Shown: positions 8,154-11,820 of the stretch, piece by piece
Numbering within the stretch: the first letter of the stretch is position 1
How the letters are laid out: every line of letters begins with the position of its first letter
Source: Candidatus Fusicatenibacter merdavium
Lineage (GTDB): Bacteria; Bacillota; Clostridia; Lachnospirales; Lachnospiraceae
NCBI GenBank assembly: GCA_019115005.1
Contig: DXEK01000190.1
Location: 1 to 44,785, forward strand
Direction of reading: 5' to 3'
Length of the DNA: 44,785 bases
The notes under the pieces: generated by a model
Database searches by the model: none
The model's input: only the letters and a program-made list of their open reading frames with translations
Told to the model about the DNA's origin: nothing
Translations under genes and position numbers: made by a program

Positions 8154-8861
8154 ATGGTATCCAAACAGAAAATTCTGATCGTCGACGACGACAACAATAT
8201 TGCAGAGTTAATTTCGCTCTATCTGACCAAAGAATGTTATGACACCCAGATTGTCAACGACGGAGAGGAGGCGCTGCGGGCCTTTGAAACCTTCCGCCCG
8301 AACCTGATCCTGCTGGACCTGATGCTTCCGGGTATGGACGGTTATCAGGTGTGCCGGGAAATCCGCCACAATTCCGACGTGCCGATCATCATGCTCTCGG
8401 CGAAAGGCGAGGTCTTCGACAAAGTCCTCGGGCTGGAACTGGGCGCCGACGACTACATCATCAAACCATTCGACTCCAAAGAGCTGGTCGCCCGCGTCAA
8501 AGCAGTCCTCCGCCGCTTCCAGGCCGCAAGACCGGTGCCTGCGGCGCCGTCCAATATCAAATGTGTGGAGTACCCGGATCTGATCATCAACCAGACAAAC
8601 TACTCCGTGATCTATCAGGGAAAGGCCATCGATATGCCGCCGAAGGAGCTGGAGCTTCTGTACTTCCTGGCCTCTTCGCCCAATCAGGTCTTCACGAGAG
8701 AACAGCTTCTGGACCATATCTGGGGCTACGAATACATCGGCGACACCCGTACCGTAGACGTTCACATCAAACGCCTCCGGGAAAAGATCAAGGATCACGA
8801 GTCCTGGTCCATCAGCACCGTCTGGGGCATCGGCTATAAATTTGAGGTCAAAACGCCATGA
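8154..8861 (+). CDS. Response regulator, OmpR/PhoB family
   Basis: Receiver domain ILIVDDDNN...LLDLMLPGMDGYQVC...KPFDSKELVARV; winged helix C-terminus; RBS aaaggagg. Confidence 0.94.
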   Translation: MVSKQKILIVDDDNNIAELISLYLTKECYDTQIVNDGEEALRAFETFRPNLILLDLMLPGMDGYQVCREIRHNSDVPIIMLSAKGEVFDKVLGLELGADDYIIKPFDSKELVARVKAVLRRFQAARPVPAAPSNIKCVEYPDLIINQTNYSVIYQGKAIDMPPKELELLYFLASSPNQVFTREQLLDHIWGYEYIGDTRTVDVHIKRLREKIKDHESWSISTVWGIGYKFEVKTP

Positions 8862-10267
8862 AGCGAACTCTGTACAAAAAGTTTATCTTCGCTTATGTAC
8901 TGTTCGGAATTGCAGGCTTCGTCTTTCTCTCCACCGTCGGCTCCCGGGTCATTGAACGCCATCTGACCGAGACCTCCAGCGCCTCGCTGATCCGCGAGGC
9001 CCGGAGCATCGCCAGCAGCCAGGCCAGCCGCTATTACCAGGAGGAAAGCACCCTGCAGGCACTATACAGAAATCTGAGCACCCTGGCCACTTACCAGGAC
9101 GCTCAGATCTGGCTGATCAGTCCCGACGGTGAAATCCTCCTGAACACAGAGGAACCTCTGGACACAGAAGATCCGGACGTCATAACCGATTTTGATCCGG
9201 TGGCCCTCGGCAGCAACTACTATTCCACCGGCGACTTCTTCAGCCAGTTCGATACTGATATGCTCAGTGTAATGGTTCCTGTCACCTCCAACTACTCCAT
9301 CAACGGTTACGTAGCGATCCACACCTCTCTCGACGACATCTACAGCCAGCGGGAGGCGATGCTGCTGCGGGTAGATCTTCTGTTTCTGGTCATTTTCCTC
9401 TTTTCCTTCGGAATCCTGGCGCTGTTCGCGTTCACCGTCTACCGTCCTCTGCAGAAAATCATTCAGGGCACAGACCAGTACGCGGAAGGCAATCTGACCT
9501 ACCAGATCCAGGTTCACTCCCAGGATGAGATGGGCTACCTGGCCAGGACCCTGAACTACATGTCCGGGGAACTGAACAAGATCGGGGAGTACCAGAAAAA
9601 GTTTGTAGCCAACGTCTCCCACGATTTCCGCTCGCCGCTGACCTCCATCAAAGGCTATGTGGAAGCCATCGCCGACGGAACCATCCCTCCCGAAATGCAG
9701 GACCGCTACCTGAACATCGTCCTGTTTGAAACCGAACGGCTGAACAAACTGACCCAGAGCCTGCTGACCCTGAACGACATCGACAGCAAAGGAAACATGC
9801 TGGAGATCACAGACTTTGACATCAATGCTGTCATCAAAAATACAGCAGCCACCTTTGAGGGAATCTGTACTTCCAGAAAGATCACCATCAGCCTGGTAAT
9901 TCCTTCACAGACCCTGTACGTCCGGGCAGATATGGGGAAGATCCAGCAGGTGCTTTACAATCTGATCGACAATGCCATCAAGTTTTCCAACAACGATTCC
10001 ACGATCACCGTGGAGACGACGGAAAAATACCGGAAAGTCTTCGTCTCCGTGAAGGATTCCGGCATCGGAATCCCAAGGGAAAGTCTGTCCAAGATCTGGG
10101 ACCGGTTCTACAAAATTGATTCCTCCCGCGGAAAAGACCGCAAGGGAACGGGACTGGGGCTTTCCATCGTCAAGGAGATCATCAACGCCCACAACCAGAA
10201 CATCAACGTGATCAGCACGGAAGGCGTCGGAACCGAATTCATCTTCACCCTCGACAAGGCAGAGTGA
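8858..10267 (+). CDS. Sensor histidine kinase with HAMP domain
   Basis: Two TM segments, HAMP, H-box VANVSHDFRSPLTSIKGYVEAI, N-box LIDNAIKFSNN, DSGIGIPRE, GTGLGLSIVKEI; overlaps RR stop. Confidence 0.94.
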   Translation: MKRTLYKKFIFAYVLFGIAGFVFLSTVGSRVIERHLTETSSASLIREARSIASSQASRYYQEESTLQALYRNLSTLATYQDAQIWLISPDGEILLNTEEPLDTEDPDVITDFDPVALGSNYYSTGDFFSQFDTDMLSVMVPVTSNYSINGYVAIHTSLDDIYSQREAMLLRVDLLFLVIFLFSFGILALFAFTVYRPLQKIIQGTDQYAEGNLTYQIQVHSQDEMGYLARTLNYMSGELNKIGEYQKKFVANVSHDFRSPLTSIKGYVEAIADGTIPPEMQDRYLNIVLFETERLNKLTQSLLTLNDIDSKGNMLEITDFDINAVIKNTAATFEGICTSRKITISLVIPSQTLYVRADMGKIQQVLYNLIDNAIKFSNNDSTITVETTEKYRKVFVSVKDSGIGIPRESLSKIWDRFYKIDSSRGKDRKGTGLGLSIVKEIINAHNQNINVISTEGVGTEFIFTLDKAE

Positions 10268-10285
10268 TGTGCGGCAAGGGGGGAC

Positions 10286-10519
10286 GGAGGGAAGGAGGAG
10301 GCGGCGGGGCCTGGGGAATATGGGATGCGTGCTCACTCCGACATCCGGACAGCGCAGGAGATCATGTTCGCCGGCTTTCAGAGCGGCGATCGGCCAGTCC
10401 AGGGCGGACGGCTTTGTCCGCTCTGAGCCTGTCGGACATGATCTCCTGCGCTGTCCGTCTGTAGTCGCAAGCACTGCATCTCCATATTCCCCAGGCCCCG
10501 CCGCCTCCTCCTTCCCTCC
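10286..10519. repeat. Long imperfect inverted repeat (hairpin 1)
   Basis: 38-bp perfect outer arms 10286-10323 / 10482-10519 (ggagggaaggaggaggcggcggggcctggggaatatgg) and 22-bp perfect inner arms 10346-10367 / 10436-10457. Confidence 0.9.
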
Positions 10520-10575
10520 TGTTGCTTGGCCGCGCATGGGGAGAAAAAACGGATTTGGCTGGCGCGAATACCCTT

Positions 10576-10657
10576 CCCATTTTCCACAACCTGCCGCCCT
10601 CCACCCTCCGCTCACACTCTCAGAAATCGGCCGTGCCGCCTTGGCTCCGCTCGGGCG
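10576..10657 (+). repeat. Direct repeat A
   Basis: cccattttccacaacctgccgccctccaccctccgctcacactctcagaaatcggccg...gccgccttggctccgc, repeated at 10718-10800. Confidence 0.9.
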
Positions 10658-10717
10658 AGGAACTGCCGCCGGCGAACACTGCGCCCATCCTTTCCACATA
10701 TCGCAGAGAACATCCTC

Positions 10718-10800
10718 CCCATTTTCCACAACCTGCCGCCCTCCACCCTCCGCTCACACTCTCAGAAATCGGCCGCGGCCGCCTTGGCTCCGCCCGGGCG
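10718..10800 (+). repeat. Direct repeat B (copy of 10576-10657)
   Basis: Nearly identical to 10576-10657; its 3' part also forms the left arm of hairpin 2. Confidence 0.9.
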
Positions 10801-11055
10801 GGGATGACTGGGGCCGGCAGGAGAAATATGGAAATGCAGGGCTTGCGACTACAGACGGACAGCGCAGGGCACAATGTCCGACGAGCTCAGAGCGGGCAAA
10901 ACCTTACGCCCTGAAAACCCAAAACGCCGCTCTGAAAGCCGGCGAACATTGCGCCCTGCGCTGTCCGGATGTCGAAGTGAGCACGCATTCCATATTTCTC
11001 CCGCCGGCCGCAGTCCCCCCGCCCGGGCGGAGCCAAGGCGGCCGCGGCCGATTTC
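10765..11055. repeat. Long imperfect inverted repeat (hairpin 2, related to hairpin 1 in opposite orientation)
   Basis: Outer arms gaaatcggccgcggccgccttggctccgcccgggcgggg (from 10765) pair with the reverse complement ending at 11055; inner arms 10856-10877 / 10946-10967. Confidence 0.9.
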
Positions 11056-11062
11056 GTCCGGC

Positions 11063-11551
11063 CTACCATGAAAAGTTCCGCAGTTGTCCTTCTTTCTGCA
11101 TGTTTGCAAATCCCTGCTGCCGCAGCGCCTCATACAAAACGATCGCCACCGAATTCGCCAGATTCAGCGACCGGATACTCTCATTCATCGGGATCCGGAT
11201 CGCCGTATCCGGATGCTTCACAAGGATCTCCTCGGGGATCCCGGCACTCTCCTTGCCAAACATAATATAGCAGTCCTCTTCATACTGTACATCCGCATAA
11301 GTCTGTCTGGCCTTCGTCGTCGCCATATAAATTTTAGCACCCGGATTCTTCGCCAGAAAATCTTCATAATTCAGGTACGTCGTGACGTCAAGATCCCTCC
11401 AGTAATCCATCCCGGCTCTCTGGATCGCTTTCTCATTCAGGCGAAACCCCAGAGGTTCGATCAGATGCAGCCGCGTTCCGGTCGCCACGCAGGTACGTCC
11501 GATATTTCCCGTATTTGAAGGAATCTCCGGCTCAAATAACACAATATTCAT
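11063..11551 (-). CDS. trmL: tRNA (cytidine(34)-2'-O)-methyltransferase, SpoU family
   Basis: MNIVLFEPEIPSNTGNIGRTCVATGTRLHLIEPLGF, MFGKESAGIPEEIL, IPMNESIRSLNLANSVAIVLYEALRQ. The track start 11560 is GTG; ATG at 11551. Confidence 0.92.
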   Translation of the reverse strand: MNIVLFEPEIPSNTGNIGRTCVATGTRLHLIEPLGFRLNEKAIQRAGMDYWRDLDVTTYLNYEDFLAKNPGAKIYMATTKARQTYADVQYEEDCYIMFGKESAGIPEEILVKHPDTAIRIPMNESIRSLNLANSVAIVLYEALRQQGFANMQKEGQLRNFSW

Positions 11552-11820
11552 CTTTGACACAATGATACACTTCCTTTTCTCACATTATTTCACAACCATT
11601 CCGCCAACTGAACGGTTCACATCTTCCATCGTTTCCATCCCGGACCATCAAAAATTATCCCTCGATGATCCAAAATGATCCGGCCACCCATTGACACTCC
11701 GTTTTTCTGCAATCCGCACGGTAAAGGAGCAATCCAGGCTGAACAGTCACACAATTTTCATGCTGCCGGAGTCCCTAAAACATTTTTTCTTATATACTCC
11801 ACACGTTTCTCTTAGATACA

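Follow-up and report, generated by a model that had tools for sequence, protein, structure and literature searches.

The intergenic region of Candidatus Fusicatenibacter merdavium onto which a histidine kinase gene and a SpoU/TrmL-type methylase gene converge holds two long hairpins in opposite orientations. What are these hairpins, and what keeps their arms paired? The original prediction for this locus suggested that base pairing is maintained, by selection or by a copying mechanism, and named a structured RNA, a cruciform/protein site, and a non-autonomous palindromic element among the options. Here we describe the locus within its window, the whole stretch of 44,785 nt that was analyzed (contig DXEK01000190.1), and compare it with related copies in other genomes.

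Two hairpins between convergent genes

Both hairpins lie where they had been predicted (Table 1). Hairpin 1 has the expected perfect outer arms of 38 nt (10286-10323 and 10482-10519), and those of hairpin 2 (10765-10803 and 11017-11055) are perfect for 39 nt and near-perfect on to about 70 nt. The predicted folds are very stable, with energies of -199 kcal/mol for hairpin 1 and -234 to -243 kcal/mol for hairpin 2 (z of about -20 to -21), and no shuffled sequence folds as stably as either. Taken as a whole, one hairpin is an inverted copy of the other, as had been claimed, with 82% complementarity over 190 nt (10308-10497 against 10816-11005). All four inner-stem differences said to be matched on the facing arm are so matched; hairpin 2 has one additional change without a match, which leaves A.C mispaired near 10871/10952. 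Between the kinase and the methylase, neither promoter-like nor intrinsic-terminator-like sites were found. A third, degenerate part-copy, absent from the original prediction, is also present.

Table 1. Element copies, their parts and the neighboring genes in the window
Feature	Position	Strand	Remark
Element copy 1 (hairpin 1)	10286..10519	-	palindrome, minus orientation
Element copy 2 (hairpin 2)	10765..11055	+	palindrome, plus orientation
Core strand A of copy 1 (GCAGTGCTTGCGACTACAG)	10459..10477	-	family motif, 0 mismatches
Core strand B of copy 1 (TGTCGGAGTGAGCACGCAT)	10325..10343	-	family motif, 0 mismatches
Core strand A of copy 2	10836..10854	+	family motif, 1 mismatch
Core strand B of copy 2	10970..10988	+	family motif, 1 mismatch
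C-rich left flank of copy 2	10735..10764	+	kept across family; consensus roughly CCGCCCTCACCC..CCGCCGCCACAACCCA
CGTCC end of copy 2	11055..11059	+	immediately before trmL stop codon
CGTCC end of copy 1	10282..10286	-	about 15-20 nt beyond kinase stop codon; from sequence and family pattern
Degenerate, internally deleted part-copy and tandem duplication of copy 2 left part	~10566..10700	+	repeats D1, D2, D6
Histidine kinase, left neighbor	8858..10267	+	context
TrmL-type SpoU methylase, right neighbor	11063..11560	-	context

A palindromic element in one branch of Fusicatenibacter

Homologs of the hairpins were found in the source genome, with about 12-16 copies of which some are at contig ends, and in three other Fusicatenibacter species; all four are gut bacteria. 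The family analysis rests on 48 copies from these four species, and the counts are not fully independent of one another. Genome G004 has the largest number of copies (22 matches; 99% complete). Named matches are all Fusicatenibacter or so labeled, namely isolate An817, Fusicatenibacter sp. MAG.350, and Candidatus F. intestinigallinarum. Isolate An817, which carries copies on long contigs, was deposited as Lacrimispora saccharolytica; JACJJN010000004.1 and other An817 contigs group with Fusicatenibacter, and the label therefore looks wrong. Three further Fusicatenibacter genomes gave no convincing match. Under strict filters, searches of 397 genomes of the bacterial family (model R2) and 116 relatives (model R1) gave matches in Fusicatenibacter only, and none was obtained in the plasmids, phages, and viral contigs searched. 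A match to MIR1858 in Rfam (53.7 bits, gathering score 137) was judged to reflect chance similarity to a long hairpin. We found no description of this palindrome family in the literature.

The palindromes are 209-499 nt long (median about 290, 48 copies) and near-perfect, and no gene lies inside them. On the strand that reads from core A to core B, a C-rich flank ending in CCA or TCA leads into an outer arm, core A (ATGCAGTGCTTGCGACTACAGRCGGACA), and a variable inner stem. An apical helix and loop follow, and then the inner stem, core B (TGTCCGNATGTCGGAGTGAGCACGCAT), the outer arm, and CGTCC. Conservation is limited to the asymmetric core (about 60 nt over two facing strands), the C-rich left flank, and the CGTCC end. 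Cores A and B lie opposite each other, and their complementarity is only partial, interrupted by invariant mismatches. Almost the entire stem varies in sequence from copy to copy, yet remains paired. At eight sites copies are paired, always in the order minus then plus, with no genes seen between the partners. Pair partners are more alike than other copies of the same genome (inner stem 0.66 versus 0.51; loop 0.64 versus 0.45), which suggests exchange or recent local duplication.

Copies are intergenic, and their CGTCC end is near a stop codon or a promoter. About 19 directly follow a stop codon, mostly at 1-19 nt where the distance is measurable, and promoters are faced about as often as stop codons; automatic gene calls are noisy at this G+C, and these classes were assigned by reading the flanks. 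At spoIIIAA, the site is filled in G004, and G001 and G003 have an empty site; at rplS, only G000 has a filled site. Three species have a copy at plsX, a site that is empty in two outgroups with a similar promoter. The element is therefore inserted or lost. The empty sites are too diverged to place exact junctions, and no target-site duplication was established from them. Together, the copies and the filled and empty sites give good support to the non-autonomous palindromic element of the original prediction, as a dispersed DNA element confined to one Fusicatenibacter branch. No mobilizing enzyme was identified. Y1/RAYT transposases were considered as mobilizers and set aside, as G004, the genome with most copies, has no Y1 match. 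Loss of SbcCD as a permissive factor was likewise rejected, SbcD being present in all seven genomes.

Several irregular copies and neighboring repeats were also observed. Part-copies of the left half stand in tandem beside full copies in the left flanks of L061, L064, L065, L066, and L079, and in the window at 10566-10700; they recur as if replication had slipped at the hairpin. The left flank of L084 has a C-rich flank followed by CGGATTTTCGTCCCC, and looks like an element with its hairpin almost wholly deleted. In L085 (G004:C78, at a contig end) the palindrome extends, almost free of mismatches, over about 60 nt of the hrcA promoter region, which may be an assembly artefact or true growth of the palindrome into host sequence. 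A second intergenic repeat, made of GTAACAGTTCAGCC..GGCTGAACTGTTAC-type palindromes and a GCGCAGTAAATGCGCAGACC motif, adjoins several copies (right flank of L095; left flanks of L068, L069, L074, L089, and L093). A third common stretch, roughly TTACGCGGAATCTGCCCCAAAATCAGTCAGCG, is found in the left flanks of L059(-), L060(+), and L070(+).

Paired arms, a conserved core, and a preferred strand

Across the 48 copies, 97.5% of alignment cells are paired and 42 of 58 pairs show double changes, with 439 double-changed cells versus 95.5 in shuffles and a covariation score of 0.455 versus 0.124; the alignment was fitted to a model of the same structure, so these counts lean towards it. When partners are shifted by 1-3 columns, pairing falls to 32-49%. 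Base pairing is thus maintained far above chance, as had been predicted, and the lack of both further copies and covariation, which would have told against the idea, is not what was found.

The mismatches of the outer arms are informative about how pairing is kept. Selection on an RNA from either strand would make G.T or A.C commoner. The outer arms of the 48 copies hold 78 G.T, 72 A.C, and 63 other mismatches (G.T versus A.C, p=0.68), and since G.T is no commoner than A.C, RNA pairing is disfavored as the keeper of the long arms. Moreover, G.T changes are very rare relative to double changes. Arm lengths range from 36 to 176 nt with a left-right correlation of 0.999, which is partly a consequence of the palindrome-finding method. 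At orthologous sites both arms differ in length together (for example 109, 81, and 102 nt at plsX), a pattern that is hard to obtain through independent compensating changes and easy through copying one arm from the other. Judged from divergence patterns between species, copying of one arm onto the other in DNA appears to fit the long-arm pairing best.

The core behaves differently. In 12 groups of orthologous sites, core identity is 92%, versus 60-61% for the arms and 64% for the loop, and the core remains asymmetric at sites whose arms and loop have diverged to about 60%. From these comparisons, the asymmetric core does appear to be under selection. Within each of the 12 site groups, the copies agree in their A/G subtype, which is defined by core alignment column 38; shared copies therefore descend in place and were not replaced by fresh insertions, and independent re-insertion at shared sites was rejected.

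Near the core, the A-to-B strand shows 45 A.C and 18 G.T site-level events (p=0.0009), modest counts from an alignment fitted to structure, and the excess of A.C on this strand means tolerated G.T pairs on the opposite one. At column pair 61/158, C.A predominates on the A-to-B strand, and on the opposite strand all 48 copies have either a standard pair or G.T. The bias is present at stop-side sites (16 A.C versus 4 G.T) and at promoter-side sites (27 versus 14), which argues against co-transcription as its cause; near-core G.T is favored on one fixed strand irrespective of the direction of the neighboring gene. One folded strand is probably read near the core. The simplest reading of the bias is that one folded strand matters, either as DNA or as a separately made RNA.

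The structured RNA of the original prediction thus fares poorly for the long arms, where G.T and A.C are balanced and lengths change jointly, and gains from the one-strand wobble excess near the core. Between selection and copying the outcome is divided: selection appears to act on the core and the pairing next to it, and copying is the best fit for the long arms.

Origin of the element and its relation to known repeats

The explanation we prefer, with a probability of about 0.5, is that the locus holds two inverted copies of a non-autonomous palindromic element whose arms are homogenized by DNA copying and whose core is kept because a trans-acting factor reads it. The arms would be kept identical by template switching during replication or by arm-to-arm gene conversion. 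Selection would keep the core, with the putative factor reading one folded single strand of it (GGACG-hairpin-TGG), either while the element spreads or as part of a chromosomal role. More tentatively, the core may be a site read in one folded DNA strand by a putative recombinase or hairpin-binding protein, and the rest a self-homogenizing palindrome, free in sequence if paired; this would be an undescribed kind of folded-DNA site, kept by selection at fixed chromosomal places. The function of the element is deduced from sequence in either case. Some findings stand against the preferred explanation: conservation of the core in place exceeds expectation for an inert selfish insertion, no mobilizing protein was found, Y1 transposases being absent from G004, and no target-site duplication was established.

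It is unlikely that the element is a structured non-coding RNA, or an RNA feature of gene 3' ends, with helices kept by selection on RNA folding. Strong covariation, a conserved internal loop between variable helices, and a one-strand G.T preference in the inner helices are typical of RNA, and the copies placed right after stop codons would suit it. However, the outer arms show no wobble preference, G.T changes are scarce next to double changes, the conserved flanks have no promoter, and no Rfam family is matched at its gathering score. An element that faces promoters about as often as stop codons would also be crossed by transcription on opposite strands. A bidirectional transcription terminator or insulator that replaces ordinary terminators at gene borders would explain why right ends lie about 1-20 nt from stop codons or just ahead of -35 boxes, why an ordinary terminator hairpin separates the same gene pair in one outgroup, and why many arms terminate in GAAA...TTTC. 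This proposal is improbable, as many copies are without a T run, no intrinsic terminator was recognized, some sites retain a normal terminator too, and the conserved asymmetric core is left unexplained.

Neutral template switching alone could have left relic palindromes, perfect and without present function. Copying would account for the behavior of the arms, and partial and deleted copies are common, but the core is asymmetric and still 92% identical where arms and loop fell to about 60%, which makes this reading quite improbable. That the palindromes are an assembly artefact is extremely improbable. Several contigs do end within or near copies, and L085 is a copy from a metagenome-assembled genome (MAG) at a contig end with a suspiciously extended palindrome. 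Nevertheless, an isolate and independent MAGs carry copies within long contigs, and these copies have unlike flanks and an asymmetric core.

The element resembles REP/BIME repeats, MITEs, and integron attC sites, and fits none of them. GTAG REPs carry a GTAG tag and are mobilized by a Y1 (RAYT) transposase; the present element has no GTAG tag and, in G004, no Y1 match. As with MITEs (RUP, NEMIS, ERIC, YPAL, bcr1), the copies are short, gene-free, dispersed, and intergenic, with strong hairpins, and the gene-free dispersal with empty sites in relatives that marks a MITE is seen here. Unlike in MITEs, the arms differ in every copy. The ends are paired but variable in sequence with no conserved terminal inverted repeat, no parent insertion sequence was found, and no target duplication was established. 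Integron attC sites share short conserved motifs and mismatches within an otherwise variable palindrome and the preference for one folded strand; the element is much longer, is not linked to gene cassettes, and has no attC core boxes that we noticed in its aligned core. Quasipalindrome correction by template switching also makes inverted-repeat arms alike by DNA-level copying, but is known as a mutational process and not as a dispersed family with a protected asymmetric core.

Like REP/BIME repeats, the copies are palindromes between genes that occur singly or as inverted pairs and carry a short unpaired tag on either side. CGTC-tagged REPs, as described in PMC3733652, are palindromes of 20-40 bp with a stem of 8-9 bp, tagged with CGTC on one side and ending in a CCA tail on the other, and have no known dedicated transposase; that paper does not report them for Firmicutes. 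Most element copies have both tags; on the A-to-B strand, CCA stands 5' of the hairpin and CGTC stands 3' of it, apparently the reverse of the published order (PMC3733652). At 209-499 nt versus 20-40 nt the element is well outside the REP size range, and its stems are hypervariable whereas REP stems are conserved.

Bacterial palindromes that exceed about 150-200 bp are in general regarded as unstable. Yet several of these species, in genomes that have SbcD, keep a dozen or more palindromes next to housekeeping genes, each 209-499 nt in length. The family offers a natural experiment in which the part kept in sequence, the core, is separable from the part kept in pairing only, the arms. With it, copying between the arms of palindromes can be measured across species.
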